From the NCBI RefSeq assembly GCF_900625105.1, contig NZ_UYYD01000004.1, positions 1 to 64,000 on the forward strand: a DNA stretch of 64,000 bases. The letters are read 5' to 3'. The DNA comes from Agathobaculum sp. Marseille-P7918. GTDB taxonomy: Bacteria; Bacillota; Clostridia; Oscillospirales; Butyricicoccaceae. Position 1 is the first letter of the stretch. Each line of letters opens with the position of its first letter. The position numbers and the translations under genes were made by a program. Under the pieces are notes generated by a model. It did not search any database, had not been told where the DNA came from, and saw nothing but the letters and a program-made list of their open reading frames with translations. Shown here in pieces: positions 39,268 through 53,783 of the stretch.

Positions 39268-39294
39268 CCCGTTTTGCAAAGGAGACAGGCTAAC

Positions 39295-41238
39295 GTGCAC
39301 CCCAAATGTAAAGAACAAGCAAAAAGCAGGAAAATTTTAAGTTATATCGTCAACGCCGTGCTGGCGCTGGTGCTGATCTATGCGGCGGTGTATCTGCTGC
39401 GCAAGGGCACGATTTTTTACCGGCCGGAAAGCCAGAAGCCGCTGGGGGTGTTGGCGGCGCTGCCCTTTTTGCTGCGTCCGCGCAGACGGGCGACCGGGCC
39501 GGAATTGGCGATCCATGATATTCTGGTGCTGCTGTCGGCCAGTTCGTTTGCGCTGCTGCTGACCGAGTTTGTGGTCAAGGGCGGCATCATCGTCGGCAAT
39601 ACGGCCATCTGGCAGGGATATGTGTACCATGCGGCGATTTTCGGTCTGATTTATGTATTTGCCGGCAGCATCCGCTGGACCACCTGCATCGGCATGGGCG
39701 TGACCCTGCTGTATGCGCTGATCGACCATTATGTAACCGTGTTCCGCGGCACACCGGTGCTGCTGAGCGATATTTTTGCCATCGGAACGGCAAAAAACGT
39801 GGCGGCGAATTATTCTGTGCCGATCGAGTTTTCCGTGCTGGTCACCGTGGGAATTGCGGTGCTGTTCTGCTTCGCCGTGTGGCGGATGCGCCGCAGGGCG
39901 ACGCCGCGCCGCTGGCAGTTCCTCACCTGCTCGCTGCTGCTGTGCTGCTGGCTGTATGGGCTTCGGCTCGCGGGCAACAGCTTTGGCTTCTGGCAGGGCA
40001 ATCTGGAGTACAGCGAGTGGTACTATTTCTGCCGCACGGCGGGCAACGCCATTGTGGAGCAGCCGACAGGCTATTCGGCGGAGGCGCTAAGCGAGATCAC
40101 GGAGGAATACAGCGGTGAGCAGGGTGAAACGCGACCCAACATCATCATGGTGATGAATGAGTCGTTTGCGGATCTGAAGGACGTCGGCGCGTTTGAGACC
40201 AATGAGGATTATCTGCCGTTCCTGCATTCGCTCGCGGGGCGGGAGAATACGATTACGGGCGACCTTCTGGTTTCGACCTTTGGCGGCGGCACCGCTACCA
40301 CCGAGTTTGAGGTGCTGACGGGGGACACGATGGCATTCTTACCGTTCGGTTGCTCACCGTACCAGATGTACGTCAAGAGCGCGACGCCGGGGGTGGTGTC
40401 CGGTCTGTCGGAGCAGGGCTACCAGACGGTTTCGCTGCACCCATACCGCGCTACGTCGTGGAATCGCCAGCAGGTGTATGAACGGTTTGGGTTTGTAACT
40501 CAGCTGTATGAGGGCGATTTTTCATCGGATGCGGAACGTCTGCGCAGCTTCATCAGCGACAGCGAGGATTATCGCAAGATCATCGAGGTCTATGAAAACA
40601 AGCCGGCGGATACACCGCTGTTCCTGTTCAACGTGACCATGCAGAACCATGGCGGATATGTGCCGGATGATACGGACAATTTCGAGCAGACGATCTGGCT
40701 GACGGGGGAATACGAGGGGAAATATCCGGAAGTGGACGAGTACCTTTCGCTTGCAAGGCGCAGCGATGATGCCATCAAAGAACTGATCGACTATTTTTCG
40801 TCGGTGGATGAGCCGACGGCGATCATTTTCTTCGGCGATCACCAGCCGAATGTGCCGAGCGCGTTCTATGACGATCTGTTCGGCAACACGGACGCCAACC
40901 GCAGCCGGGAAGAGAAGCAGAAGAAGATGGTCACACCGTTCTTCATTTGGGCCAACTACGATATTGCCGAGCAGACCGATGTGCAGATCAGCGCCAATTA
41001 CCTGACGGCGTTCGCGCTGGATGCGCTGGGATGCTCCACCTCGGGATACGATCAGCTGCGCCTGTCCGTGCGGGAGCAGATCCCGCGCATTAATAATTAC
41101 GGGTACTACATGCAGGATGGCAGCTGGTATGACTCGGAAACCGCAGAGGAATGTGAGACGCTGGATGCATATCAGATGATGCAGTATGCGCAGCTGTTCG
41201 ACACAAAAAAACGAGACGATTCCTGGTATCAACCATGA
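39295..41238 (+). CDS. LTA synthase/phosphoglycerol transferase-like membrane sulfatase
   Basis: 647 residues: about five N-terminal membrane helices (to about 240) and an extracellular sulfatase-fold domain. Metal-site motifs are visible: NIIMVMNESFADL, the nucleophile region GDLLVSTFGGGTATTEFEVLTG and FFGDHQPNVPS. Such enzymes polymerise or transfer glycerol phosphate to glycolipids or glycans. The start is GTG at 39295 behind AAAGGAGA; an upstream TTG precedes that ribosome site and is rejected. Which polymer it builds is unknown. Confidence 0.86.
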   Translation: MHPKCKEQAKSRKILSYIVNAVLALVLIYAAVYLLRKGTIFYRPESQKPLGVLAALPFLLRPRRRATGPELAIHDILVLLSASSFALLLTEFVVKGGIIVGNTAIWQGYVYHAAIFGLIYVFAGSIRWTTCIGMGVTLLYALIDHYVTVFRGTPVLLSDIFAIGTAKNVAANYSVPIEFSVLVTVGIAVLFCFAVWRMRRRATPRRWQFLTCSLLLCCWLYGLRLAGNSFGFWQGNLEYSEWYYFCRTAGNAIVEQPTGYSAEALSEITEEYSGEQGETRPNIIMVMNESFADLKDVGAFETNEDYLPFLHSLAGRENTITGDLLVSTFGGGTATTEFEVLTGDTMAFLPFGCSPYQMYVKSATPGVVSGLSEQGYQTVSLHPYRATSWNRQQVYERFGFVTQLYEGDFSSDAERLRSFISDSEDYRKIIEVYENKPADTPLFLFNVTMQNHGGYVPDDTDNFEQTIWLTGEYEGKYPEVDEYLSLARRSDDAIKELIDYFSSVDEPTAIIFFGDHQPNVPSAFYDDLFGNTDANRSREEKQKKMVTPFFIWANYDIAEQTDVQISANYLTAFALDALGCSTSGYDQLRLSVREQIPRINNYGYYMQDGSWYDSETAEECETLDAYQMMQYAQLFDTKKRDDSWYQP

Positions 41239-41278: not shown

Positions 41279-41653
41279 GTGCAAAATGGAGAGAACTAAA
41301 ATGGTGGGTTTTGAGTATGAAAATGATGATAAAATGAGTAAATTGTTGTAAAAAAGGAAAAATATTAGTTCAATTTAGACAAAAAGGTTTTGCTGTTTAT
41401 GTGCAATCAAACAAAGTGCTGGAAAAAACTTAAAAAAGTTTTGCCAAGATAGGAACATAGTGTTAAAATGGATGACGGACATAGGAGGAGCAGCGAGTGC
41501 ACACTTCAGGATCTTCGGTGAAAACTGGCGATCTGTTTTTTTATGGTGTTTGCGTGCGCGCGCCCGCAAAATCGGTTCCATCTTGCTGGGGAGTGTATGG
41601 GATGGAATTCCTCCGACCCAGGAAAGAAAGAAAAACAAGAAGGGGAGAAAAGC
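41279..41653. other. AT-rich intergenic and leader region of the symporter
   Basis: The first half (to about 41440) is AT-rich and shows no gene. The second half is an expected 180-base leader with a short frame behind a strong ribosome site. No known riboswitch consensus is recognised. Confidence 0.6.
41441..41469 (+). promoter_or_regulatory. Promoter of the symporter transcription unit
   Basis: TTGCCA, 17 bases, TAAAAT; implies a leader of about 180 bases. Confidence 0.7.
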
Positions 41654-41667
41654 ATGCAGTTTTTTAA
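41497..41667 (+). CDS. Leader ORF (56 codons) overlapping the symporter start
   Basis: GTG six bases after AGGAGGAG, in the leader of the symporter mRNA. It encodes 56 residues with a strongly basic end (RPRKERKTRRGEK) and stops 14 bases inside the symporter gene in a different phase. Could be a leader peptide that couples or regulates symporter translation, or a chance frame. No homologue recognised. Confidence 0.4.
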   Translation: MHTSGSSVKTGDLFFYGVCVRAPAKSVPSCWGVYGMEFLRPRKERKTRRGEKHAVF

Positions 41668-43378
41668 TTCCTTGGCGTTCACCGCGATCACCTTCGTGGC
41701 ATTCACGGCGCTCGTCGCGATCATCTCCTGGTGGAAAACCCGTGGAGATAATCTGGATACGCAGGACGGCTACTATCTGGCCGGCCGCGGTCTGACCGGC
41801 CCGGTTATTGCCGGTTCTCTGCTGATGACCAACCTGTCTGCTGAACAGCTGGTCGGCAACAATGGTCAGGCGGTTCGTGTTGGTATGAGTACGATGGGCT
41901 GGGAAGTTACCTCGGCCATCGCGCTGGTTATTCTGGCGTTCGTGCTGATGCCGAAGTACTTACAGACCGGTCTGACGACCGTACCGCAGTTCTTTGAGGA
42001 GCGCTATGACGCGGGCAGCCGCCGTCTGGTTTCGATCATCGTACTGCTGAGCTATGTTGTCATCATGCTGCCGAATATCCTGTATGCCGGCGCAGAAGTG
42101 TTTGTTAACATCTTCGGCCTGGACAAGGTGCTTGGTATTTCTTATTTCGCAGCCATCGCCATTGTGTGTGTTGCGACCGCAATTGTCGGTTCGATTTACG
42201 CAATTTTCGGCGGCCTGAAGGCGATTGCACTGTCCGACTCGATCAACGGTCTGGGCCTGATCGTCGGCGGTCTGCTGGTGCCGATTTTCGGCCTGATGTT
42301 CCTGTCCGGCCAGCTGGGCGGCGACGGCAGCTTTATGGACGGCTTTGACAAGTTCCTGCACACCGATCCGGCTTACCTGAACTCCATCAACGAATATAAC
42401 TCGCCCGAGCCGTGGCTTCCGTGGCCGCTGCTGCTGACCGGTCTGCTGGTCAACAACATGTACTACTGGGCGACCAACCAGTCCATCATTCAGCGTACCT
42501 TCGGTGCAAAGAACCTGAAGGAAGCACAGAAGGGCGCGGTATTCGCGGGCTTCCTTAAGATCATGACGCCGCTGATCATCGTTGTGCCGGGCGTTATCTG
42601 CGCGCTGGCTTATCCGGGTCAGGATTGGGGCAACGGCAACTCGGCTTACCCGATGCTGGTTTCCCAGGTTATGCCGAAGCCGGTACTGGGCTTCTTTGCG
42701 GCCGTTATGTTCGGCGCCATCCTTTCTTCGTTCAACTCGGTGCTGAACTCCGCATCCACCATTTACGCACTGGATATTCACCGTCCGATCTTCAACCCGA
42801 CCGCGTCCGATGCGCACATGGTTAAGGTTGGCCAGAATTTCGGTACGATCGTTGCAATCGTTTCTACTATCATGAGCCCGTTCATGCTGTACATGACCGG
42901 TATTACCACGTTTGTTAACTCCGCTTTCGCGGCGTTCAACACGCCGATCTTCGTCTGCCTGCTGTGCGGCTTCTTCTGGAAGAAGGTTCCGTCCATCGCA
43001 GCCAAGATCGTCATTCCGGTGCACGTTGTGCTGTACTTCCTGCTGCAGTTCGTCCTGCGTGACATCATCCCGGCGCTGAACGATATCCACTATCTGTACT
43101 TCACCGCGATCCTGTTCGTGTTCGACATGCTGCTGATGTGGGTCATCGTCAAGAAGAACCCGCGTCCGGAGGACTTCGTGCTGCACGATGCCAAGGCAGT
43201 CGATATGACGCCGTGGAAAAACGGCAAGATCTGGGCGACCATTACGCTGCTGATCATGGTTGCGGCGTATATCATCTTCTCGCCCCTTGGCTTCGGCAAG
43301 AGCGATACTTCTACCTTTGAGCGCTATCAGGCAAACCAGGCTTCGGCTTCGGCGGTTACCGAAATGGTGCAGGAATAA
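41654..43378 (+). CDS. Sodium:solute symporter (SSS family), probably for inositol or a related sugar
   Basis: 574 residues, SGLT-type with about 14 helices. Family features: GYYLAGRGLTGPVIAGSLLMTNLSAEQLVGNNGQ (sodium-site helix 1), TGLLVNNMYYWATNQSIIQRTFGA and FFAAVMFGAILSSFNSVLNSASTIYALDIH. It resembles glucose/inositol symporters more than proline ones. First gene of the inositol island, so inositol uptake is inferred from context. The ATG at 41654 follows AAGGGGAGAAA. Codon use with many GTT, GCT and CGT codons suggests strong expression. Confidence 0.86.
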   Translation: MQFFNSLAFTAITFVAFTALVAIISWWKTRGDNLDTQDGYYLAGRGLTGPVIAGSLLMTNLSAEQLVGNNGQAVRVGMSTMGWEVTSAIALVILAFVLMPKYLQTGLTTVPQFFEERYDAGSRRLVSIIVLLSYVVIMLPNILYAGAEVFVNIFGLDKVLGISYFAAIAIVCVATAIVGSIYAIFGGLKAIALSDSINGLGLIVGGLLVPIFGLMFLSGQLGGDGSFMDGFDKFLHTDPAYLNSINEYNSPEPWLPWPLLLTGLLVNNMYYWATNQSIIQRTFGAKNLKEAQKGAVFAGFLKIMTPLIIVVPGVICALAYPGQDWGNGNSAYPMLVSQVMPKPVLGFFAAVMFGAILSSFNSVLNSASTIYALDIHRPIFNPTASDAHMVKVGQNFGTIVAIVSTIMSPFMLYMTGITTFVNSAFAAFNTPIFVCLLCGFFWKKVPSIAAKIVIPVHVVLYFLLQFVLRDIIPALNDIHYLYFTAILFVFDMLLMWVIVKKNPRPEDFVLHDAKAVDMTPWKNGKIWATITLLIMVAAYIIFSPLGFGKSDTSTFERYQANQASASAVTEMVQE

Positions 43379-43393
43379 AAAGGTACTTATCAT

Positions 43394-43426
43394 AAAAAAG
43401 GGCTGCCCGTTGGGGCGGCCCTTTTT
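43394..43426 (+). terminator. Terminator of the symporter gene
   Basis: AAAAAGGGCTGCCC, loop GTTG, GGGCGGCCCTTTTT (one T-G pair). Confidence 0.85.
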
Positions 43427-43448
43427 GTCGTTTACAGCGGGAAAGCGC

Positions 43449-43477
43449 TTTGCAGTGCTGCACGGATATGGTAAAAT
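43449..43477 (+). promoter_or_regulatory. Promoter of the VOC gene
   Basis: TTTGCA, 17 bases, TAAAAT with TGG extension. Confidence 0.55.
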
Positions 43478-43501
43478 AGAATAACAAGGAGGTTGACTGA
43501 C

Positions 43502-43906
43502 ATGAAGGAATTGTATAAGGGCTTGGGCCATGTCGCGATCTACACGGCGGACATGGAAGAGAGCATTGCGTTTTATGAAAAGATCGGCGGCAGCGTCTAC
43601 AAGCGGGACGGCGTCGCGACGCCGACAGGGGAGAAGAAGTTGGCGCTGGTGGAGTTCGGCGGCTTCCTGCTGGAGCTGATCGAGCCGCCTGCGGGCGAGC
43701 TGGTGCCGGCAGGAGAGGGCAGCATCCCGCACTTTGCGGTCTATGTGGACGATCTGGACAAGGCGGCTGCTGCAATCAAGGAGGCCGGTGTGATCTCGTT
43801 TATGACGCCGGAGAAAAAGGTGCTGCCGGATACCTTCGGCGGCCTGCAGAACTGGTTCTTCACCGGCCCGTCCGGGGAGCAGATCGAGCTGCTGCAAATG
43901 CTTTGA
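43502..43906 (+). CDS. VOC-family (glyoxalase I-like) metalloenzyme
   Basis: 134 residues forming two beta-alpha-beta3 modules. All four glyoxalase-type metal ligands are kept: His10 (GLGHVAIY), Glu58 (LLELIEPP), His77 (IPHFAVYVDD) and Glu129 (GEQIELLQ). Such proteins isomerise, epimerise or hydrolyse small oxo or hydroxy compounds; the substrate here is unknown. It sits within the inositol island between the symporter and iolD, with its own promoter. ATG at 43502 lies 9 bases after GGAGG. Could serve aldehyde or keto-acid detoxification in the pathway. Confidence 0.82.
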   Translation: MKELYKGLGHVAIYTADMEESIAFYEKIGGSVYKRDGVATPTGEKKLALVEFGGFLLELIEPPAGELVPAGEGSIPHFAVYVDDLDKAAAAIKEAGVISFMTPEKKVLPDTFGGLQNWFFTGPSGEQIELLQML

Positions 43907-43957
43907 GGATGGATAGCTGTGCAGCGCACGGCAATCCTCGAGTGAAAAACGCAAAAG

Positions 43958-43994
43958 AAAAGAGCGCCTTCGGGTTTCCCGAAGGCGCTCTTTG
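43958..43994. terminator. Bidirectional terminator between VOC gene and iolD
   Basis: AAAGAGCGCCTTCGGG, loop TTT, CCCGAAGGCGCTCTTT. Confidence 0.9.
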
Positions 43995-44013
43995 TTGAGA
44001 AGAGGAGAGAGTA

Positions 44014-45984
44014 TTAATAGTGACGAGCTTCGTACAGGTGATCTTCGATCGCCTTGCGCGCAGCCTGCACTTCCGGCTTGGTAGAAACTTCCGGTACACC
44101 AACACGCCACCAGTTCTCGTAGCCCTTGGACATGGTCTTGGGCAGAACCTTCATGTCGATGACGGTGGAAACCGTCTGCTTCTTGGCGTCCTCGATGGCA
44201 GCCTTGAGCTCATCCATGGTCTTGACGGTGTAGGTCTTGCAGCCGTAAGCCGCGCCGATTGCCGCATAGTCTACCTGGATGACCTTGCCCTTGTAAATGC
44301 CGTTGGTCACGCCCGGCTCGAGCATGTTCTTCTCGGTGCAGATGCAGGCGTTGCCCTGGCCAACCTCGAGGTTGTTGATGCAGCCGAAGGAAGCGTTATC
44401 AAACAGCATGACGTTGATCTTCTTGCCGATCTGAACGGAAGTGATCAGCTCGGAGTGCAGCATATCGAACGAACCGTCGCCGCACATTGCGTAAACTTCC
44501 TTGTCCGGGCAAGCGAGCTTCGCGCCCAGAGCAGAAGCGATTTCGTAACCCATGCAGGAGTAGCCGTACTCCATGTGATAGGTGTTGATCTTGCGTGCAC
44601 GCCACATGCCCTGCATGTCGCCCGGCAGCGAACCAGCCGCTGCGCAAACGATGGCATCGTCATCAATCAGGTGGTTGATCGTGCCGAGAACCGCGGTCTG
44701 GCACAGCTTGCAGCCGGTGTCCTCGATGTACTTCTCAACGCATTCGCGGTTTGCGTCGTTGATTTCCGGAATGAAGGAATCCTTGTCGGTGTAAGTGCAG
44801 TGATCCAGACGATCAACCTCGTCGAACCACTCCTTGCGGTAAGCCGCAATCGTCTTGGCATACTCTTCGTCGGTGTGGTAGCCGATCTTCTTGAGCTCTT
44901 CGCCGATGGCGGTCAGTGCCTCGTTGGCGTCAGCCACAACCGGGGTAGCGTCCATCTTGTATGCCTGGAACTCGGACGGGTTGATGTTGACGAACTTGGC
45001 GTCCGTGCGGTACAGCCACTTGGAAGCGGTGGTGAAGTCGGTGTAGCGGGTGCCGACGCCGATGACAACGTCCGCCTCGTGTGCCAGCTTGTTGGCCGCG
45101 ATGCCGCCGGTGGTGCCCAGACCGCCGAGGTTGAGCTCGTGGGTCCATTCAACCGCGCTCTTGCCCGCCTGGGTCTCGCCGAAGGCAATGCCGAAGTCCT
45201 CAGCGAACTTCTTGAATACCTTGTGCGCTTCTGCGTAGCGTACGCCGCCGCCGCAGATCAGGAGCGGCTTCTTTGCGGTCTTGATGACCTCAACGGCCTT
45301 CTCGAGTGCATACTTGGTGATCGGACGACGGTCGATGCGCCATACGCGCTTCTTGAAGAAGTCAACCGGGTAGTCGTAAGCTTCTGCCTGTACATCCTGC
45401 GGCAGGGAGATCGCAACCGCGCCGGTGTTGGCGGTATCGGTCAGCACGCGCATCGCGGAGATCATGTCGGTCATAACCTGCTCCGGACGGTTGATGCGGC
45501 CCCAGTACTTGGTGACAGCCTGGAACGCGTCGTGTGCGGAAATGGTCAGGTTCTGCGGCTGCTCCATCTGCTGGAGAACCGGGTCAGGCTGACGGGAAGC
45601 GTAAATATCGCCCGGCAGGATCAGAACCGGAATGTTGTTGGCGGTAGCGGTCGCAGCAGCGGTTACCATGTTGCATGCGCCGGGGCCGACAGAAGAGGTA
45701 GCAGCAAAGATCTGCTTGCGGCGCATCTGCTTGGCATAGCCGACAGCAGCCAGCGCCATGCCCTGCTCGTTCTTGCCCTGATAGACAACCATGTCCTTCA
45801 GTTCCTGCTCAACGCCGTTGGCAAAGCCGACAACGTTGCCGTGGCCGGGCAGCATGAAGATGCCCTTGACGAACTTGTGCTCCTGCTCGTTGCCATCCAT
45901 GTCAATGTAGCTGACATACTGGTTCTCGAGGAAGCGGACGAGTGCCTGAGAAGCGGTCAGGCGTACAGTTTCCATATGCTTCAT
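44014..45984 (-). CDS. iolD: 3D-trihydroxycyclohexane-1,2-dione hydrolase
   Basis: 656-residue thiamine diphosphate enzyme that opens the inositol-derived ring to 5-deoxy-glucuronate. N-terminal [18 protein letters not shown] and [15 protein letters not shown], the ThDP-binding motif [40 protein letters not shown], and the substrate loop GLGTTGG are typical for IolD. It is last in a two-gene minus-strand operon with iolB, 69 bases apart. Starts at ATG behind TAGGAGG. Complete by length. Confidence 0.92.
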
Positions 45985-46052
45985 AGGTTTTGTTTCCTCC
46001 TAAAAAGAATTCTCTTTCTTCTTTAATCTAAGCCGATCGGCGAAGCAGCTGA

Positions 46053-46859
46053 TCAGTTGCCGGTCGGGCAGTGCCAGATGTGATCGTTGGCATCGTCCGC
46101 GAGCAGCCACAGATGCTCCTCGTCGTCGATACGGGTCTTGTCCCACGGATTGCCCGGCAGATGACGGATGCCCCAAGCGTAGCAGCAGGAGTAGCCCGGT
46201 GCGGTGACCTGAGAATGCATCTTGTCGGTGATGATAGCCAGACCGTTGTGGTGAGTCTCGTAGATCTCGCCGTTGCCCCAGCCAGCGCCGAAGCCCATCG
46301 GCTTGTCATAGCGGTAGAAGTAGCACTCCGGCTGCGGATGATGATGCGGCGGATAGCTCGACCACTTGCCCGGCAGGTTGACAACTTCGCCCAGCACCAT
46401 GTTGGAGTAGGGGGCGTTGTCCAGATCGAAGCAGGTGCGCACGTCGCGCTTGATGCAGCCCATCAGTTCGCCCTGATTGCCGCGCGCCCAAGTGTCGGTG
46501 TCTTCCGGCTTATACATCTTGTTCGGGAAGGTCTTTTCGTTGATGGTCTTCTGGATATAGATATTGCAGGGACCGTGCGCGGTGATCTTCACCTTGGTGC
46601 CCTTGCAGACATGCAGGCAGGACGGGTTGTAATCGAACGGATTGGGACGGTCTACGTCGTAGGTCTGGTCATCCCACTCGAAGGTGCACTTGCCGTCGAA
46701 TACGAGCGCAGCCAGTTCCTTTTCCGGCTCCTCGAAGGAGTAGGTGTCGCCATCCTCCATGACGAGCAGGGCAACGTCCATCATGGCATCCTTGCCGATG
46801 CCTTCGTCCAGACGGATATACTCGTTGTATCCGCGCTTGACTTGCTTATCAATGTACAT
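46053..46859 (-). CDS. iolB: 5-deoxy-glucuronate isomerase, divergent form
   Basis: 268-residue cupin isomerase that turns 5-deoxy-glucuronate into 2-deoxy-5-keto-gluconate. The double-stranded beta-helix metal motif SYPPHHHPQPECYFYR and the later ETHHNGLAIITDKMHSQVTAPGYS fit the IolB/KduI family, but the pattern differs from the Bacillus type (PPHKH..ETYYHR). It precedes iolD on the same strand and is divergent from an AraC gene. Start ATG after GGAGGG. The context makes IolB the best call; KduI activity is an alternative. Confidence 0.85.
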   Translation of the reverse strand: MYIDKQVKRGYNEYIRLDEGIGKDAMMDVALLVMEDGDTYSFEEPEKELAALVFDGKCTFEWDDQTYDVDRPNPFDYNPSCLHVCKGTKVKITAHGPCNIYIQKTINEKTFPNKMYKPEDTDTWARGNQGELMGCIKRDVRTCFDLDNAPYSNMVLGEVVNLPGKWSSYPPHHHPQPECYFYRYDKPMGFGAGWGNGEIYETHHNGLAIITDKMHSQVTAPGYSCCYAWGIRHLPGNPWDKTRIDDEEHLWLLADDANDHIWHCPTGN

Positions 46860-46953
46860 AACTGTTTCCCTCCAAAAAAAGATTTTTTTGGTACAGCGTC
46901 CGGCGGTTGGGCCGGGCGGTTGGCGGTCAGCCGTACAGGGCTGTCCAACTCTT

Positions 46954-46983
46954 ATTATAACATGCAGCGCCAAATGCTTTCAA
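46954..46983 (-). promoter_or_regulatory. Promoter of iolB-iolD
   Basis: Minus strand TTGAAA, 18 bases, TATAAT with TGT extension. Confidence 0.7.
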
Positions 46984-47087
46984 CGCATTCCAAGCTGCGG
47001 GGGAACTCTTTGGCATTTAGCACAAAAACCGGCTGGGTTCTTCTGTCAAATGATACAACAAAAATACGATTTTCGGATTCCGTACTC

Positions 47088-47116
47088 TTGCGTTTGTTCC
47101 CGTTTGCGACTATAAT
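47088..47116 (+). promoter_or_regulatory. Promoter of the AraC-family gene
   Basis: TTGCGT, 17 bases, TATAAT; the -10 lies in the palindrome CTATAATTATAG. Confidence 0.7.
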
Positions 47117-47196
47117 TATAGCAGATAGCGGCAAAAATGCTTGCAATATCTTCACAAACAATAACACTATTTTAAGGAATAAAGCGGAGGGATGAA

Positions 47197-48078
47197 ATGG
47201 ACGCGGCAAGGCGGGAAAAACGGGAACACGGTACGCAGGCGTTTCCGTTTCAGATTTACCCTGCGCTGGACGGCAGCGAGGCAGATGACAGCGATTTCAT
47301 CCCCTATCACTGGCATCCGGAACTCGAGATCATCACGGTGGACGCCGGACATGTTTCGCTGACGATCGCGGACCATGTGTATGAAGGCGAGCACGGGGAT
47401 GTGTTCTTTGCCGCGGGGGAAGAACTGCACGAAATCCGCGCGGCGGGACGGGAAAATCAGTTCCGTTCCTTTGTGTTTGCGGCGGATTTCCTGCAGTTTG
47501 CGCGTGCCGATCAGGCGGAGACCGAGCTGCTTGCGCCGCTCGCGGAGGGCCGACTGCGGTTTGCCACCTGTCTGCGCGTGGGTGAGACCGGACAGCGGGA
47601 GGTGCGCGCCCTGCTGGCGCAGATTGTGCGCGCCTGCCTGGGACAGGCGCCGGGGTATCAGCTGGCGGTCAAAGCGGCGTTGCTCGGCATTGTGGCGGTG
47701 TGCGCCCAAGCCGGCCTGTTGACCGGCCGGCGGGTGCGACCGGGCGCGGACTACAAGGCGCGCCAACTCAAGGAGATCGTCGGGTATCTGGGCGCGCATT
47801 TTACCGAACCGCTGTCGCTGACCGCGGTGGCCGCGCATTTCGGTCTGTCGCCGCAGTATTTCAGCAGCTTCTTTCGGGAGAATTTCGGCCGGACGTTCAC
47901 GCAGCATATCAATTCCCTGCGCATCGAGCAGGCGGCGCGCCTGCTGCGCGAAAGCGACCTGCCGGTGATGGAGATCGCATTCAACGTTGGGTTTGACAAT
48001 TTCAGCTATTTTATCAAGCGTTTCCGTTCGGTCTACGGCGTTTCGCCCTCAACTTATCGCAAAAACAGTCTGGCATAA
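47197..48078 (+). CDS. AraC-family transcriptional regulator
   Basis: 293 residues: N-terminal cupin sensor (YHWHPELEIITVDAGHVSLTIADHVYEGEHGDVFFAAGEELHEI) and C-terminal double helix-turn-helix (LTAVAAHFGLSPQYFSSFFRENFG and MEIAFNVGFDNFSYFIKRFRSVYGVSPSTYRKN). It is divergent from iolB-iolD and most likely activates them in response to an inositol-derived ligand. ATG after GCGGAGGG. Ligand identity is inferred from context. Confidence 0.88.
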   Translation: MDAARREKREHGTQAFPFQIYPALDGSEADDSDFIPYHWHPELEIITVDAGHVSLTIADHVYEGEHGDVFFAAGEELHEIRAAGRENQFRSFVFAADFLQFARADQAETELLAPLAEGRLRFATCLRVGETGQREVRALLAQIVRACLGQAPGYQLAVKAALLGIVAVCAQAGLLTGRRVRPGADYKARQLKEIVGYLGAHFTEPLSLTAVAAHFGLSPQYFSSFFRENFGRTFTQHINSLRIEQAARLLRESDLPVMEIAFNVGFDNFSYFIKRFRSVYGVSPSTYRKNSLA

Positions 48079-48082
48079 CAAA

Positions 48083-48119
48083 AACGGGCGGCTTCGGCGC
48101 AGTGCCGAAGCCGCCCGTT
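48083..48119. terminator. Bidirectional terminator between araC and deoR genes
   Basis: AACGGGCGGCTTCGGC, loop GCAGT, GCCGAAGCCGCCCGTT; little T-run. Confidence 0.7.
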
Positions 48120-48141
48120 CGTGTGACGGAAGGATCAGAGA

Positions 48142-48897
48142 TTATTCATACCGGAGCTTGACGTTTTCCTGCCGGCACAGGTCCACATATTCCTTGGGCG
48201 GTTCGCGGTCGGTGATGAAAGCGGTCAGATCCTTGAGGTGACAGAAGGTGACGATGGCTTCCTTGCCGATCTTGGAGGAGTCCACCATGCCGTAGATCGT
48301 GTCCGCACGCTGTACGACCGCGCGCTTGATCTCGGCTTCGAGGAAGGTGGTGTTGGTCATGCCGGCGGTCAGCGAAACGCCGGTAGCGCCCATGAATGCT
48401 TTATTGATGCGCATGGCGCTGAGCGCTTCGATCGTGGACAGACCGACAAACGAGTCGGTCGTCGGGCTGTAAATGCCGCCGAGCGAGATGATGTTCAGGT
48501 TATCATACTTGGATGCCTCGCTGAGCGCACCGAGCGAGTGCGTGATGATCGTAATGCGTTTTTTCGCCACCAGAAACCGCAGCAGGCACAGTGTCGTCGT
48601 GCCGGAGTCGATAAAAATGGTGTCGCCGTCGGCAACTTCCTCGGCGGCCAGGCGGCCGATGAGGGACTTGTCGATCGGGTTGAGGCCGGAACGGATGGGG
48701 GTCGGCACAGCGCCGGAGGGCACGGTGGCGGTGACGCCGCCGTAAACCTTCGTAATATGCCCGCGCACCTCAAGTTCGTTCAAATCGCGGCGGATGGTGT
48801 TTTTGGAAACGCCGAAAACCTCGCATAATTCATCAATGCTGACGGTCTCGCGTGAGATCACATATTGTTCAATTGAATTGAGACGGCTGACTTTCAT
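48142..48897 (-). CDS. DeoR-family repressor
   Basis: 251 residues: N-terminal DeoR helix-turn-helix (IEQYVISRETVSIDELCEVFGVSKNTIRRDLNELE) and a C-terminal sugar-phosphate binding domain (IFIDSGTTTLCLLRFL, SLGGIYSPTTDSFVG). IolR of Bacillus belongs to this family and senses 2-deoxy-5-keto-gluconate-6-phosphate; a comparable role is plausible here although the kinase gene is not in the window. It faces a long AT-rich spacer with the transketolase genes on the other side. Start ATG at 48897. Confidence 0.88.
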   Translation of the reverse strand: MKVSRLNSIEQYVISRETVSIDELCEVFGVSKNTIRRDLNELEVRGHITKVYGGVTATVPSGAVPTPIRSGLNPIDKSLIGRLAAEEVADGDTIFIDSGTTTLCLLRFLVAKKRITIITHSLGALSEASKYDNLNIISLGGIYSPTTDSFVGLSTIEALSAMRINKAFMGATGVSLTAGMTNTTFLEAEIKRAVVQRADTIYGMVDSSKIGKEAIVTFCHLKDLTAFITDREPPKEYVDLCRQENVKLRYE

Positions 48898-48947
48898 CTT
48901 CCATGTTCCCCAATCTTACCCGAAAATTAACCAGAATAACTTTCTTT

Positions 48948-48976
48948 AGTGTATCAAAAATTGCTTAAAATGTCTA
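48948..48976 (-). promoter_or_regulatory. Promoter of the deoR gene
   Basis: Minus strand TAGACA, 17 bases, TACACT; the segment TGATACACT is shared with the transketolase promoter. Confidence 0.6.
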
Positions 48977-49328
48977 CTGGTCCAAAAGAGGGGGAAAAAC
49001 TGCCAATTGCGTTATTAATGTAACACAATCCTGTGCGGGGGCGTGAACGCAGCAATTATTTTCCTCTTAAGATAGGAAAAATAAAAATAAAAATATTTCT
49101 GCGTGCACAAAATCTGGTTGCTTTTTGGTCATATGCGTTCGATGCAGGCATGGGCTGCTGTTACAGGTACAAAATTGGATTCTACTCGCGAGATAACCAA
49201 AAAAATATAGAAACACAACCAAGACATAACAAACAAATTTCGAAAAATTGCCAGCGGAAATTTATAAATAATTCCGAAGGGTACAAAACCGGGGATGGAA
49301 TTTTTGTAAACAAATGTGTGAATTTTGG

Positions 49329-49357
49329 TTGAAATCTGGGTAGCTTGGTGATACACT
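49329..49357 (+). promoter_or_regulatory. Promoter of the transketolase genes
   Basis: TTGAAA, 17 bases, TACACT. Confidence 0.65.
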
Positions 49358-49443
49358 GTAATCGATATACAGCGGCCAGTTGCCGCTGTCGCCGGAACCT
49401 GTTCCGCGGAGAGAAAATATTTTGAATTAGGCAGGTGTATGCA

Positions 49444-50295
49444 ATGCAGAAAGCAGAAAAGATGCAGGAGCTTCGCGTATTTGCGCAGGAAATCCGTTTG
49501 GAAACCCTGAAAACCATCGGCTCGCTCGGCTTTGGCCATGTGGGCGGTTCGATGTCCATCATTGACGCGCTGGCCGTTCTGTATGGTGACGTAATGAAGA
49601 TCGATCCGAAGAACCCCCGTTGGGAGGATCGTGACTGGTGCGTACTGTCCAAGGGTCATGCCGGCCCGGCGATGTATGCCACCCTCGGCCTGAAGGGCTT
49701 CTATCCGCTGGAGAACGCTTACACGCTCAACCAGCCGCACACCAACTTCCCGTCCCACACCGACCGCACCAAGACCCCCGGTGTTGACCTGACCACCGGC
49801 TCGCTCGGCCAGGGCATGTCCACCGCAACGGGCGCGGCGCTCGGCAACAAGATCGACGGCCGCGACAATCATGTATTCGTATTTGTCGGCGACGGCGAGG
49901 CGGACGAAGGCCAGGTTTGGGAGGCTGCTCAGTTCGCGGTACATTATCAGCTGGACAACCTGGTTTGCTTTGTTGATGATAACAAGTATCAGCTCGACGG
50001 CGCATGCGAAAAGGTTATGAAGCATGCCAAGGGCATCGGCGCGAAGTTCGCGGCGTTCGGCTGGAACGTAGTCGAGTGCGCAGACGGCAACGATGTAGAG
50101 CAGATTTATGACGCTATCCAGACCGCTTATGCGACCAAGGGCGTTCCGACCTGCATTGTGCTGAACACGGTCAAGGGCAAGGGCGCTACCTTTGCTGACG
50201 GTACGGGCGCGCATTCTTCTCAGCCGTCCAAGGAGCAGTGGGACGAAGCCATTGCTTACGCTGAGAAGCAGCTCGCTGAGATCAAGGCACAGTAA
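49444..50295 (+). CDS. Transketolase, N-terminal (ThDP-binding) subunit
   Basis: 283 residues forming the PP domain of a split transketolase. ThDP-site features: SLGFGHVGGSMSIIDALAVLYGDV, SKGHAGPAMYATLGLKGFY, TGSLGQGMSTATGAAL and the GDGEADEGQVWEAAQFAVHYQLDNLVCFVDDNKYQLDG motif. It moves two-carbon ketol units between sugars. The partner subunit gene follows after 14 bases. Its position inside an inositol island rather than a pentose cluster suggests a ketose derived from inositol as donor. ATG at 49444 chosen behind AGGTG. Codon use suggests high expression. Confidence 0.9.
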   Translation: MQKAEKMQELRVFAQEIRLETLKTIGSLGFGHVGGSMSIIDALAVLYGDVMKIDPKNPRWEDRDWCVLSKGHAGPAMYATLGLKGFYPLENAYTLNQPHTNFPSHTDRTKTPGVDLTTGSLGQGMSTATGAALGNKIDGRDNHVFVFVGDGEADEGQVWEAAQFAVHYQLDNLVCFVDDNKYQLDGACEKVMKHAKGIGAKFAAFGWNVVECADGNDVEQIYDAIQTAYATKGVPTCIVLNTVKGKGATFADGTGAHSSQPSKEQWDEAIAYAEKQLAEIKAQ

Positions 50296-50309
50296 GGGAG
50301 GGTACGAAC

Positions 50310-51275
50310 ATGAGCTTTACTTTGATTGGCAAACACGAAAAGGATTCTCGTGCAAACCGCGACGGTTACGTTTCCGCGATGCTCGAGATGATGGAAAAGG
50401 ATCCCACGGTCATGCATGTTGACTGTGACCTCGAAAACTGCATCAACACCGGCAAGCTGGCAAAGGCTTTCCCGGAGCGTACCATTAACGCAGGTATTGC
50501 GGAAGCCAACGCCGTAGGCGTATCCGCCGGCCTGTGCGCAACCGGCAAGACCGTATTTGTGCACTCCTTCGGCTGCTTTGCTTCCCGCCGTGCATTCGAT
50601 CAGGCGTTCATGAGCGCCGCTTACGCCAAGCTGCCGGTACATATTGTTGGTTCCGACCCCGGCGTATGCGCAGCATACAACGGCGGCACCCATATGCCGT
50701 TCGAGGATTGCGCTCTGTACCTGTCCATTCCGGACGCAATCGTAATCGATCCGGTTGACTATGCGCAGATCAACTGCCTGACCAAGAAGCTGGCCGCTTC
50801 CGGCAAGTTCTCTTACATGCGCATGATCCGTAAGGCGTTCACCACCGTTTACGCGGACGGCTCGGACTTCGAGATCGGCAAGGGCGTGACCCTGAAGGAA
50901 GGCAAGGACGTTGCCATCATCGCTTCCGGCATCATGGTAGACGAAGCACTCAAGGCACAGGAGCAGCTGGCCGCTGAGGGCATTTCCGCCAAGGTGATCG
51001 ATATGTTCACCTGGAAGCCGCTCGACGAGCAGCTCATCATCGACTCCGCCAAGGAGTGCGGCGCGATCGTAACCGCTGAGAACCATCAGGTCAAGTGCGG
51101 CCTGGGTTCCGCGATTGCCAACGTTGTCATCAAGAACTGCCCGGTTCCGATGGAAATGGTCGGCGTCGAGGATCGCTTCGGCCAGGTTGGCGCGGAGAGC
51201 TTCCTGCGTGAGGAGTACGGCCTGACTGCCGCTCACATTGTTGAGGCTGCCAAGAAGGCTATTTCCCGCAAGTAA
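50310..51275 (+). CDS. Transketolase, C-terminal (pyrimidine-binding) subunit
   Basis: 321 residues forming the Pyr and C-terminal domains. INAGIAEANAVGVSAGLCATGKTVFVHSFGCFASRRAFDQ contains the catalytic Glu that activates ThDP; later VHIVGSDPGVCAAYNGGTHMPFEDCA and ENHQVKCGLGSAIANVV follow the family. It pairs with the preceding subunit in the same operon. RBS AAGGGAGGG. Followed by a strong terminator. Confidence 0.9.
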   Translation: MSFTLIGKHEKDSRANRDGYVSAMLEMMEKDPTVMHVDCDLENCINTGKLAKAFPERTINAGIAEANAVGVSAGLCATGKTVFVHSFGCFASRRAFDQAFMSAAYAKLPVHIVGSDPGVCAAYNGGTHMPFEDCALYLSIPDAIVIDPVDYAQINCLTKKLAASGKFSYMRMIRKAFTTVYADGSDFEIGKGVTLKEGKDVAIIASGIMVDEALKAQEQLAAEGISAKVIDMFTWKPLDEQLIIDSAKECGAIVTAENHQVKCGLGSAIANVVIKNCPVPMEMVGVEDRFGQVGAESFLREEYGLTAAHIVEAAKKAISRK

Positions 51276-51286
51276 TCCAAACAGAT

Positions 51287-51320
51287 CAAAAGGCGCGCTG
51301 CACAAGCAGCGCGCCTTTTT
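51287..51320 (+). terminator. Terminator of the transketolase genes
   Basis: AAAAGGCGCGCTGC, loop ACAA, GCAGCGCGCCTTTTT. Confidence 0.9.
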
Positions 51321-51425
51321 CCGGTTTTGCCGCGGCTTTGTCCATTCTGCCCCTATGCAGGGCTGGGATTTTGCGGTAAAATTATACTAAGAAAATTTGT
51401 GCACAAAACCGATGGAGGAAACACT

Positions 51426-52598
51426 ATGGATTTGAAGGAGCGCGCCCTCAAGGCGCATGAGCAGTGGGGCGGCAAGATCGAGGTCGTCGCGCGCTGCGAG
51501 GTCAACAGCAAGGAAGATCTTTCGATCGCGTATACGCCGGGCGTTGCCGAGCCGTGCCTTAAGATCAAGGACGACCCGTCCCTGAGCTATACCTACACCC
51601 GCCGCCATAATCTGGTTGCCGTCATCACGGACGGCACGGCGGTGCTGGGCCTGGGCGATATCGGCCCGGAGGCCGGCATGCCGGTTATGGAGGGCAAATG
51701 CGCGCTGTTCAAGGCGTTTGCCGATGTGGACGCGTTCCCGCTTTGCGTCAAGAGCAAGGATGTGGACGAGATCGTACGCACGATCCAGCTGATTTCCGGC
51801 TCGTTCGGCGGCATCAACCTGGAGGATATCGCCGCGCCGCGCTGCTTTGAGATCGAGCGCAAGCTCAAGGAAGTCTGCGACATTCCGGTGTTCCATGATG
51901 ACCAGCACGGCACAGCGGTGTGCTGCGGCGCGGCGCTCATCAACGCCTGCCGCCTGACCGGCCGCAAGGTAGAGGACATCAAAATGGTCGTCAACGGCTG
52001 CGGCGCGGCCGCGATCGCGGTGACCAAGTTCCTGATGTTCCTCGGCATCCGCGATGTGACCATGGTCGAGCGCTTCGGCATCGTTTGCGAGGGTGATGAG
52101 CGCCTCAATCCCGCACAGGCCGAGATGGCCAAGGTCACCAACCGCAGCCATATGACCGGCACGCTGGCCGATGCCATCAAGGGTGCGGACGTGTTCTTCG
52201 GCATGTCGGCACCGCAGGTGCTGACCAGCGACATGGTTTCCACCATGGCGGAGAACCCGATGGTGTTTGCAATGGCCAATCCGGTGCCGGAAATCTGGCC
52301 GGAGGACGCCAAGAAGGGCGGCGCCGCGGTGGTCGGCACCGGCCGTTCGGACTATCCGAACCAGATCAACAATGTGCTCGCGTTCCCAGGTATCTTCCGC
52401 GGCGCGCTCGATGTGCGCGCCAGCGACATCAACGAGGAGATGAAGCTCGCCGCCGCCAAGGCGATCGCCTACTGCGTCTCGGACGAGGAGCTGACTCCGG
52501 AATATATCATGCCGATGGCATTTGACAAAAAGGTCATCCGCGCGGTTGCCGACGCCGTGGCACAGGCCGCGCGCGACTCGGGTGTGGCGCGCATCTGA
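51426..52598 (+). CDS. Malic enzyme (malate dehydrogenase, decarboxylating)
   Basis: 390-residue short bacterial type that oxidises and decarboxylates L-malate to pyruvate. Motifs: AYTPGVAEPC, ITDGTAVLGLGDIGPEAGMPVMEGK, PVFHDDQHGTAVCCGAALIN with metal and substrate residues, and the NAD(P) site VVNGCGAAAIAVTKFL. Within the inositol island it could take malate formed from a C4 fragment. ATG after GGAGGAAA. It has no terminator before iolE but iolE has its own promoter. Cofactor preference cannot be told. Confidence 0.9.
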   Translation: MDLKERALKAHEQWGGKIEVVARCEVNSKEDLSIAYTPGVAEPCLKIKDDPSLSYTYTRRHNLVAVITDGTAVLGLGDIGPEAGMPVMEGKCALFKAFADVDAFPLCVKSKDVDEIVRTIQLISGSFGGINLEDIAAPRCFEIERKLKEVCDIPVFHDDQHGTAVCCGAALINACRLTGRKVEDIKMVVNGCGAAAIAVTKFLMFLGIRDVTMVERFGIVCEGDERLNPAQAEMAKVTNRSHMTGTLADAIKGADVFFGMSAPQVLTSDMVSTMAENPMVFAMANPVPEIWPEDAKKGGAAVVGTGRSDYPNQINNVLAFPGIFRGALDVRASDINEEMKLAAAKAIAYCVSDEELTPEYIMPMAFDKKVIRAVADAVAQAARDSGVARI

Positions 52599-52704
52599 GC
52601 CGGCTTTTTGTCGCGGAAAAGGGCGCTGCGTGCCCGTGCACGGCGGAACTGTGCAATTTGCTGAAAAAGTTTTTTGCACAGGGCGTTTCTGTGCAAAAAT
52701 GCGT

Positions 52705-52733
52705 TTGACTTTTGCAATATAGTTGAGTACAAT
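52705..52733 (+). promoter_or_regulatory. Promoter of iolE
   Basis: TTGACT, 17 bases, TACAAT. The leader contains the hairpin CGCATGC, GAAA, GCATGCG at 52748-52765. Confidence 0.7.
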
Positions 52734-52796
52734 AAGGATAGTAATGGCGCATGCGAAAGCATGCGGTATGAGAGATGAAAATGGAGGGAATAACAC

Positions 52797-53732
52797 ATGT
52801 TAGATCCGAAGAAAGTAAAGCTGGGTATCTGCCCGATCGGCTGGTCCAACGATGATATGTGGGATCTTGGCGATGAGAACACGTTCCAGCAGTGCATTTC
52901 CGAGATGAAGCTCGCGGGCTTCGATGGCTGCGAAGTCGGCCATAAGTATCCGGAGGATAAGGAAGTCCTCAAGCACATGCTCGACGTGCGCAACATGACC
53001 ATCGCGTCCAAGTGGTTCTCCTCTTTCCTGGTTGACAAGCCGTACGAAGAGGTTGAGGCCGAGTTTATCAAGGAACTGGATTACCTTTCCTACGTCGGCG
53101 CAACTGCAATCAATGTATCCGAGCAGTCCGGCTCTATCCAGGGCAAGCTCGACACCGCGATTCTCGATATGGAGAACAAGCGCGTCCTGACCGACGAGGA
53201 GTGGGACCGCTTCACCACCGGCCTGAACAAGCTGGGCAAGCTGTCCATGGAGAAGTACGGCATCCGTACCTGCTTCCATCATCACATGGGTACCGTGTGC
53301 CAGACGGTTGAGGAAACCACCCGCCTGATGGAGAACACCGATCCCAAGTACGTATTCCTGTGCTTCGATACCGGCCACTTCACCTTCGCAGGCGAGGATC
53401 CGGTCAAGATGCTCGAGAAGTTCGCTGACCGTGTAGGTCACGTTCACCTGAAGAACATGCGTATGCCGATGGTTGAGAAGGCTCGTGCAGAGCACTGGTC
53501 CTTCCTCGACGCGGTTCGCGCTGGCGCGTTCACCGTTCCGGGCGATCCGGACGGCTGCGTTGAGTTCGATAAGGTATTCGACCTGCTGGACAAGGCTGGT
53601 TACACCGGCTGGATCATGGTCGAGGCTGAGCAGGATCCGGCGAAGGCCAATCCGTTCGAGTACGCCAAGATGGGCCGCGAGTACATCACCGCGCACACCG
53701 GTCTGGGCGGCGAAGTCGTTCTCAAGAAGTAA
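52797..53732 (+). CDS. iolE: Myo-inosose-2 dehydratase
   Basis: 311-residue TIM-barrel that dehydrates 2-keto-myo-inositol to 3D-trihydroxycyclohexane-1,2-dione, the substrate of IolD. The N-terminal block KLGICPIGWSNDDMWDLGDENTFQQCISEMKLAGFDGCEVGHKYPED is diagnostic; metal ligands appear in HHHMGTVC, CFDTGHFTFAG, GHVHLKNM and MVEAEQDP. The ATG at 52797 follows TGGAGGGAA. Highly biased codons. No other iol gene is immediately next to it; iolD/iolB are 6 kb upstream on the other strand. Confidence 0.93.
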   Translation: MLDPKKVKLGICPIGWSNDDMWDLGDENTFQQCISEMKLAGFDGCEVGHKYPEDKEVLKHMLDVRNMTIASKWFSSFLVDKPYEEVEAEFIKELDYLSYVGATAINVSEQSGSIQGKLDTAILDMENKRVLTDEEWDRFTTGLNKLGKLSMEKYGIRTCFHHHMGTVCQTVEETTRLMENTDPKYVFLCFDTGHFTFAGEDPVKMLEKFADRVGHVHLKNMRMPMVEKARAEHWSFLDAVRAGAFTVPGDPDGCVEFDKVFDLLDKAGYTGWIMVEAEQDPAKANPFEYAKMGREYITAHTGLGGEVVLKK

Positions 53733-53750
53733 TTTTCCCGCTGTGGATCC

Positions 53751-53783
53751 AAAATCCCGCTCCGTTTGGAGCGGGATTTTTTT
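53751..53783 (+). terminator. Terminator of iolE
   Basis: AAAATCCCGCTCC, loop GTTT, GGAGCGGGATTTTTTT. Confidence 0.92.

Follow-up and report, generated by a model that had tools for sequence, protein, structure and literature searches.

The stretch of DNA analysed here, hereafter the window, comprises positions 1-64000 of contig C15 in the 2.83 Mb genome (99.2% complete) of Agathobaculum sp. Marseille-P7918, and carries an island in which genes for inositol breakdown stand together with both halves of a split transketolase. Many gut bacteria of the host's family, Butyricicoccaceae (family name inferred), seem to break inositol down with a specialised transketolase of this kind instead of the textbook kinase and aldolase. 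The island runs in the order symporter and VOC; iolD and iolB (minus strand); araC; deoR (minus strand); tktN, tktC, mae and iolE (plus strand), and is flanked by a lipoteichoic acid (LTA)-synthase-like gene on one side and pyrH on the other (labels by eye). Its features are:

41654..43378, plus strand: sodium:solute symporter (SSS), probably for inositol uptake, the substrate being judged from context (PF00474; NF007790, 670 bits, cut-off 401)
43502..43906, plus strand: VOC-superfamily metalloprotein, glyoxalase/epimerase-like (PF00903)
44014..45984, minus strand: IolD, trihydroxycyclohexanedione hydrolase, yielding 5-deoxy-D-glucuronate (TIGR04377, 860 bits, cut-off 715)
46053..46859, minus strand: divergent IolB/KduI-type isomerase, predicted to convert 5-deoxyglucuronate to 2-deoxy-5-keto-D-gluconate (DKG) (PF04962 and TIGR04378 scores, see below)
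47197..48078, plus strand: AraC-family regulator (PF12833, PF02311)
48142..48897, minus strand: DeoR-family regulator (PF00455, PF08220)
49444..50295, plus strand: transketolase N-terminal subunit (TktN), proposed DKG transketolase (PF00456)
50310..51275, plus strand: transketolase C-terminal subunit (TktC), with Asp461/Asn469 (E. coli positions) (PF02779, PF02780)
51426..52598, plus strand: malic enzyme, short form (PF00390, PF03949)
52797..53732, plus strand: IolE, inosose dehydratase (TIGR04379, 383 bits, cut-off 290)

Profile matches bear out every gene named in an earlier reading of the window from its sequence alone (IolE, IolD, IolB, the symporter, AraC, DeoR, the split transketolase and the malic enzyme), but that reading had left out the VOC gene between the symporter and iolD. 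As it had stated, the island encodes no IolC, IolJ, IolG or IolA. The two transketolase halves together bear the thiamine diphosphate, pyrimidine and C-terminal domains (PF00456, PF02779, PF02780). The IolB-like protein lies well over the PF04962 cut-off (153.7 bits versus 23.9) and below that of TIGR04378 (82.5 versus 205); hence, we describe it as a divergent IolB/KduI. The IolB proteins of two clusters discussed below, L065 and L172, are likewise divergent (93 and 103 bits versus 205). The window's IolD is mostly 90-99% identical to Agathobaculum and Butyricicoccus sequences, with 73% in one Candidatus Butyricicoccus.

Elsewhere in the host, two of the ten Gfo/Idh proteins (L016, L017) pass the TIGR04380 cut-off and are thus IolG. 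A whole-genome search with the IolC model returned no protein over the 300-bit cut-off, the best reaching 198.8 bits; there are nine PfkB places, and among the six scanned with this model the best likewise stands at 198 bits. That protein (L002) is fructokinase-like and adjoins a sucrose-type phosphotransferase system (PTS) cluster (context labels by eye), for which reason we rejected it as a hidden IolC. No IolA is found in the host, whose sole member of the aldehyde dehydrogenase family (PF00171) is ProA. The canonical lower pathway is therefore not encoded as such, there being neither IolA nor an IolC over the cut-off. A check of the whole genome thus extends the absence of IolA and of an IolC over the cut-off beyond the island, IolG being present at other places and the four class II aldolases being none of them tied to inositol. 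The aldehyde dehydrogenase that the sequence-only reading had placed elsewhere in the genome did not emerge, ProA being the only protein of that family. The host has one glyceraldehyde-3-phosphate dehydrogenase (GAPDH) of the Gp_dh_N kind and no type II GAPDH, the latter being present in 7 of 22 genomes searched, including G011 and, as fragments, G009, both from Butyricicoccaceae-like loci. No host protein passes the cut-off for the racemase LarA; the one PF09861 match, at 21.6 bits against 23.3, has an open frame unlike LarA and was rejected, its protein being presumably, as read by eye, of the DUF362 type. Three split transketolase pairs are encoded (in the island, on C23 and on C17), a fourth match being DXS-like.

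The coupling of transketolase to inositol genes extends well beyond the host. In an order-wide sample of 395 Oscillospirales genomes, many of them draft or metagenome assemblies, 53 have IolD over the cut-off; IolC passes its cut-off in 23 of these and is missing from 30. By family, IolC is found in 19/19 genomes of family f21, 4/31 of Butyricicoccaceae and 0/3 of family f11; a separate check of 45 genomes, partly the same set, gave IolC over the cut-off in four. We examined 68 IolD loci, that is, all IolD places over the cut-off except the window, with two neighbouring places sharing L203 and with L212 and L213, which were taken around IolC, excluded. Transketolase occurs in 30 of these loci, IolC in 14, both in none and neither in 24, with the qualification that some loci end at contig edges and some f21 genomes keep IolC away from IolD. 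The proposal of the sequence-only reading that transketolase bypasses IolC is supported by the want of an IolC over the cut-off in the host and in these 30 genomes, and by the fact that no locus has both genes. Counted by genome, in a table of 52 that omits the host, transketolase is present in the retrieved IolD locus of 26/30 Butyricicoccaceae, 1/3 f11 and 0/19 f21 genomes. The four Butyricicoccaceae genomes with IolC encode it in its own transketolase-free locus, and have a separate locus of the transketolase type in addition. A contig scan of 50 IolD loci found TktN or TktC in 33 and neither in 17, several of the latter being short or cut. Transketolase is also seen beside IolD in unrelated gene orders, including those of Chloroflexota. 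Because it recurs in differently ordered clusters of several lineages, the iol-transketolase association is far from chance; such independent gene orders are stronger evidence than genome counts. Locus L203 (positions 7061 and 10225; the same as L054) holds a tandem iolD pair with 77% and 79% identity to the window's IolD.

The transketolases of these clusters share a distinctive substrate site. Among 72 TktC-like matches, 53 are distinct: 48 linked to IolD or to the dehydratase clusters described below, and five others (L009, L011, L094 and the DXS-like L012 and L233). In all 48 linked sequences, Asp stands at position 461 and Asn at position 469 of the E. coli numbering, which was anchored to E. 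coli TktA with 17 of the 48. The pair His461 and Asp469 is instead found in TktA of E. coli, in human transketolase, in the split enzyme of Carboxydothermus and in the C23 copy of the host itself. Of the residues R358, S385 and R520 (E. coli numbering), which we take to contact the substrate phosphate, the window enzyme keeps both arginines, and its position 385 aligns with C; in addition, H461 is replaced by D and D469 by N. Lys521 is common to the linked TktC sequences, but the host's C17 copy has it too. In E. coli transketolase H461 is described as normally associated with binding of the substrate phosphate, and H461S, R520V and D469 changes are described as improving activity on the non-phosphorylated aldehydes tested (PMC3657141). 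We built two trees, of 22 and 18 chosen sequences; in the latter the linked TktN and TktC cluster together, apart from C23, C17 and E. coli, with support of 96/97. Iol-linked and dehydratase-linked transketolases fall in this same group. Given the Asp461/Asn469 fingerprint and the single tree group, the simplest reading is a dedicated enzyme for a non-phosphorylated donor. The third split transketolase of the host (L099; C17:520000-534000) adjoins HAD-like phosphatase, aldolase-like and PTS-like genes (by eye), and its TktC has residues at 461 and 469 that are neither canonical nor of the island type.

While gene content, conservation, grouping and residue changes are direct observations, we infer each reaction and substrate of the following scheme from them. 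Inositol would be oxidised by the IolG encoded outside the island, after which IolE, IolD and the IolB-like isomerase would make DKG. This ketose has the D-threo arrangement at C3-C4 that is required of transketolase donors. The split transketolase would pass the two-carbon ketol unit of DKG on to an aldose phosphate; with glyceraldehyde 3-phosphate as acceptor, the product would be xylulose 5-phosphate. As DKG is D-threo next to the ketone, it follows by derivation that the remainder would be (R)-malate semialdehyde, the carboxymethyl analogue of D-glyceraldehyde 3-phosphate. From this point lineages would use one of two exits, oxidative or reductive. Oxidation of (R)-malate semialdehyde gives D-malate and malic enzymes normally use L-malate; hence, a racemase is needed before malic enzyme. 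The exit of the sequence-only reading, via an aldehyde dehydrogenase, malate and malic enzyme to pyruvate, is not supported for the host, which has neither that racemase nor type II GAPDH and, of the aldehyde dehydrogenase family, ProA only; its more likely exit would be the reductive one, via a 4-hydroxybutyryl-CoA dehydratase module.

The D-malate problem was derived before clusters with a racemase came to light. One of these, L065 (Clostridiales MAG-R050), encodes on one strand IolG, type II GAPDH, phosphoglycerate kinase (PGK), TktN, TktC, LarA, malic enzyme, IolE, IolB and IolD, in this order. The same ten gene kinds recur in a different order in L171, from family f11, whose Gfo/Idh gene has merely 27% identity to IolG; L066 has the gene set of L065 minus transketolase in the retrieved stretch. 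Two Chloroflexota loci, L069 and L078, combine IolG, IolD, IolE, type II GAPDH, PGK, TktN, TktC and LarA, with no malic enzyme or IolB in the retrieved stretch. In L065, L069 and L171, LarA scores above the cut-off of NF052593, the model for nickel-dependent malate racemase (556, 550 and 549 bits, respectively; cut-off 500), that of L065 also matching the malate racemase Mar2 (PDB 6d6z) with 399 bits; the L078 racemase was assigned by similarity to that of L069. The GAPDH scores as archaeal type II (394 bits in L065 and 395 in L171; cut-off 185), and for the PGK of L065 the best match among solved phosphoglycerate kinases is 2cun. The full set of type II GAPDH, PGK, malate racemase and malic enzyme is thus present in L065 and L171. 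The occurrence of LarA, type II GAPDH and PGK in these clusters fits the derived chemistry: in L065, L171 and L069/L078, type II GAPDH and PGK would oxidise (R)-malate semialdehyde to D-malate with a gain of ATP, the nickel racemase would turn this into L-malate, and, where malic enzyme is present (L065, L171), L-malate would yield pyruvate.

Some related arrangements lack iol genes in the stretch retrieved. One, from a Clostridia genome (L092:4487-15217), brings together transketolase, type II GAPDH, dehydratase and CoA-transferase, i.e. parts of both exits at one place. In another (L091:393-8466; labels partly by eye), type II GAPDH and PGK are neighbours of genes for a transporter, a short-chain dehydrogenase and an FGGY-like kinase, and there is no iol match; this suggests a wider use of the GAPDH/PGK pair.

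The reductive exit is suggested by a second kind of cluster. Seven Butyricicoccaceae IolD loci (L168, L169, L170, L172, L176, L177 and L187) share the order IolD, IolB, iron-type alcohol dehydrogenase (FeADH), CoA-transferase, dehydratase, TktN, TktC; L169 and L170 have an additional Gfo/Idh gene before TktN, and the contig of L187 ends within TktN. Five more loci (L165, L166, L174, L183, L201), several of them cut, have either the opening genes of this arrangement or just the alcohol dehydrogenase. The FeADH, CoA-transferase and dehydratase were named by Pfam-scale likeness and PDB matches: the dehydratase belongs to the 4-hydroxybutyryl-CoA dehydratase family (756 bits to PDB 1u8v) and the CoA-transferase to the 4-hydroxybutyrate CoA-transferase family (470 bits to PDB 3eh7). 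We propose that FeADH reduces malate semialdehyde to 3,4-dihydroxybutyrate, that the CoA-transferase converts this to its CoA ester, and that the dehydratase removes the 4-hydroxyl to give what would be the enol of acetoacetyl-CoA, which would then enter butyrate synthesis. A course via fumarate semialdehyde to 4-hydroxybutyrate is disfavoured, as we noticed no extra dehydratase or ene reductase in the seven clusters.

The host contains all three of these families together on contig C32 (L226), where a dehydratase 91% identical to the IolD-linked one lies beside FeADH (41% identity), CoA-transferase, thiolase, crotonase-like (by eye) and 3-hydroxybutyryl-CoA dehydrogenase genes; the CoA-transferases here are a butyryl-CoA:acetate CoA-transferase (865 bits, cut-off 675) and one other. 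With these C32 genes, the reductive exit is the one most likely used in the window's host; it requires no aldehyde dehydrogenase and so suits a genome with ProA only. More widely, the dehydratase is found in 30/31 Butyricicoccaceae genomes (none in G191, two short fragments in G322, in pieces in G258), in 2/3 of f11 (it is absent from G328, owner of the oxidative cluster L171), and in 0/19 of f21, all of which have IolC. Of five further genomes one, G020, has it and the four with oxidative clusters (G016, G017, G019, G021) do not. Since butyrate clusters of this kind may be common throughout the family, this distribution taken alone is weak, and the direct evidence for the reductive exit is the linkage of the dehydratase to IolD in the seven loci. 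Of the 68 IolD loci, 10 have malic enzyme and 8 the dehydratase, with no locus holding both.

According to a 2025 review, the way in which gut bacteria convert myo-inositol to butyrate has still to be characterised in full; organisms apparently involved are said to include Dysosmobacter welbionis and Intestinibacillus massiliensis (unpublished data) (PMC12482443). A metagenome-assembled genome (MAG) of the latter has IolD, IolB, AraC, DeoR, TktN and TktC in one stretch (L068, equated with G101:C3), no IolC over the cut-off and two dehydratase genes. Butyricicoccus is reported among the abundant taxa of phytate enrichments, in which by the end most taxa had fallen and Mitsuokella had risen (PMC7618129). 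Separately, the fingerprint transketolase occurs with FeADH, 4-hydroxybutyryl-CoA dehydratase and CoA-transferase in three stretches devoid of iol genes (L228:8263-17998, L230:3049-14162 and L232). The first two also have a zinc alcohol dehydrogenase and a glycyl radical enzyme (in L228 by eye, in L230 under all curated cut-offs). In these cases the route may be supplied by a different sugar acid.

Taken together, we think it probable, though by a modest degree, that the island contributes to an inositol pathway that dispenses with the ATP-consuming IolC, in which transketolase acts on DKG and the host most likely takes the reductive exit. More tentatively, the DKG-dedicated transketolase clade might define a kinase-free pathway for inositol whose two exits are interchangeable: malate semialdehyde would either undergo substrate-level phosphorylation through type II GAPDH and PGK, with malate racemisation next, or be led to 3,4-dihydroxybutyryl-CoA, which 4-hydroxybutyryl-CoA dehydratase would convert to acetoacetyl-CoA by a radical dehydration. 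The latter exit would be the link between inositol and butyrate that has been missing for Butyricicoccaceae; we hold this broader proposal to be a little short of an even chance.

Among the alternatives, the one that survives best has the exit oxidative in the host too: an unrecognised oxidoreductase, or the housekeeping GAPDH with PGK, which might act on malate semialdehyde, would oxidise it, and the VOC protein would epimerise the semialdehyde, so that L-malate would be supplied to malic enzyme. The island malic enzyme matches the NAD malic enzyme 5cee with 462 bits and keeps the LEDI, FHDDQHGTA, ANPVPEI and PNQxNN stretches; this agreement with solved malic enzymes disfavours its use on malate semialdehyde to give methylglyoxal, with the VOC protein as glyoxalase. 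Of the 30 IolD loci that carry transketolase, 10 have malic enzyme too, L171 being among the ten and some loci being cut by contig ends, and the enzyme is also found in the oxidative clusters L065 and L066; the synteny expected by the sequence-only reading thus stands for transketolase, which is widely kept, but much less so for its malic enzyme partner. The VOC protein shows a weak PDB match to methylmalonyl-CoA epimerase (E 2.6e-5) and retains an H-E-H-E metal site (H11, E59, H78, E130) that is invariant in 10 aligned sequences. It recurs in many transketolase islands without a malate racemase and is not found in the racemase clusters L065, L066, L069, L078 and L171, which makes this metalloprotein a possible epimerase. 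Set against this, the island has no gene for oxidising the semialdehyde, and the host has no type II GAPDH, no LarA over the cut-off and no member of the aldehyde dehydrogenase family beyond ProA. Hence, we regard an oxidative exit in the host as possible, yet rather unlikely.

It is still less likely that the pathway is canonical with replaced parts, i.e. that another PfkB phosphorylates DKG and a class II aldolase splits it, with transketolase and malic enzyme serving central metabolism. The nine PfkB and four class II aldolase places of the host would provide candidates, one PfkB reaching 198 bits in the IolC model; however, that kinase adjoins the sucrose-type PTS, kinases with similar sub-cut-off scores are widespread among the genomes, and there is no IolA for the product. 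The presence of transketolase beside IolD in unrelated orders as far afield as Chloroflexota, with altered substrate-site residues, also speaks against this option. The notion that the island transketolase is a general pentose phosphate enzyme, lying beside iol genes by chance or shared regulation, is very improbable. In its favour, only three split transketolases were found in the host and the other two are in specialised-looking clusters; against it, the C23 copy keeps the canonical H461 and D469 where the island copy does not, and the enzyme recurs beside IolD in several gene orders.

Several observations weigh against the favoured pathway of transketolase on DKG followed by a reductive exit. 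The host's dehydratase sits outside the island, in a general butyrate cluster whose nearby CoA-transferase is of the ordinary butyryl-CoA:acetate type, and may serve 4-hydroxybutyrate instead. None of the IolD-linked FeADH, CoA-transferase and dehydratase proteins passes an NCBIfam curated cut-off. The host's malic enzyme and VOC gene are left unexplained by both exits; of the oxidative set, the host has malic enzyme but no type II GAPDH and no malate racemase over the cut-off. Two f11 genomes, G435 and G407, have IolD with no IolC over the cut-off and no transketolase in the retrieved stretch, and four Butyricicoccaceae genomes lack transketolase in theirs. Kinship within one family inflates the counts, so that genomes are not independent evidence. 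The tree has few canonical outgroup transketolases and gave a long-branch warning, and in L094, where a fragment of type II GAPDH lies nearby, the transketolase is without Asp461/Asn469. Finally, an operator common to the upstream regions of iolB, tkt and the symporter was sought, and only weak, single sites emerged, which were not counted as evidence. The upstream regions of iolB-araC and the symporter share one overlapping site, with 3 matches of 14 bases and one mismatch (0, 0, 0, 0 and 1 matches in five shuffles), which overlaps a terminator-like repeat on the symporter side; deoR-tkt and the symporter share one 16-base match, and deoR-tkt and iolB-araC none.

Adjoining the island, the LTA-synthase-like membrane protein (39274-41238; label by eye) has 52-84% identity in the seven related loci matched.

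The genes proposed here provide a specific, testable pathway from inositol to butyrate for gut butyrate producers, and the transketolase route could explain how some Butyricicoccaceae turn dietary inositol into butyrate. If correct, annotation that requires IolC misses inositol users, and 30 of the 53 IolD-bearing genomes would be miscalled as non-users. Further consequences would be a clade of transketolases whose phosphate-site residues are altered, the participation of type II GAPDH and malate racemase in catabolism and, for 4-hydroxybutyryl-CoA dehydratase, a new substrate as proposed here.

Comparisons with known systems place the proposal as follows. With the canonical inositol pathway (Bacillus subtilis iolABCDEFGHIJ) it has in common IolG, IolE, IolD and an IolB-type isomerase as far as DKG; thereafter the host, with no IolC over the cut-off and no IolA, is proposed to use transketolase. 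The sulfo-transketolase pathway for sulfoquinovose combines a sulfoquinovose isomerase, a split transketolase acting on sulfofructose and enzymes of sulfoacetaldehyde. The likeness, an analogy only, is that of a split transketolase taking ketol units from a non-phosphorylated anionic ketose; here the anion would be a carboxylate and not a sulfonate, and the partners are iol genes with a malate or 4-hydroxybutyrate module. No transketolase inositol pathway is among the matches listed in an open-access literature search covering titles and abstract beginnings. The Anaerostipes pathway is likewise an anaerobic gut fermentation of inositol, but its product is described as propionate and its key enzyme as a 3-oxoacid CoA-transferase, the word "transketolase" having no occurrence in the main text of that paper (PMC8355322). 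With 4-hydroxybutyrate fermentation (PDB 1u8v) the reductive clusters share the FeADH, CoA-transferase and 4-hydroxybutyryl-CoA dehydratase families, whereas here these are linked to IolD, IolB and transketolase, and the proposed substrate has an extra 3-hydroxyl and would yield acetoacetyl-CoA. Among solved structures, the two-chain split transketolase of Carboxydothermus (PDB 6yaj) is the nearest to TktC (252 bits); it retains H461 and D469, where the island enzyme has Asp and Asn.

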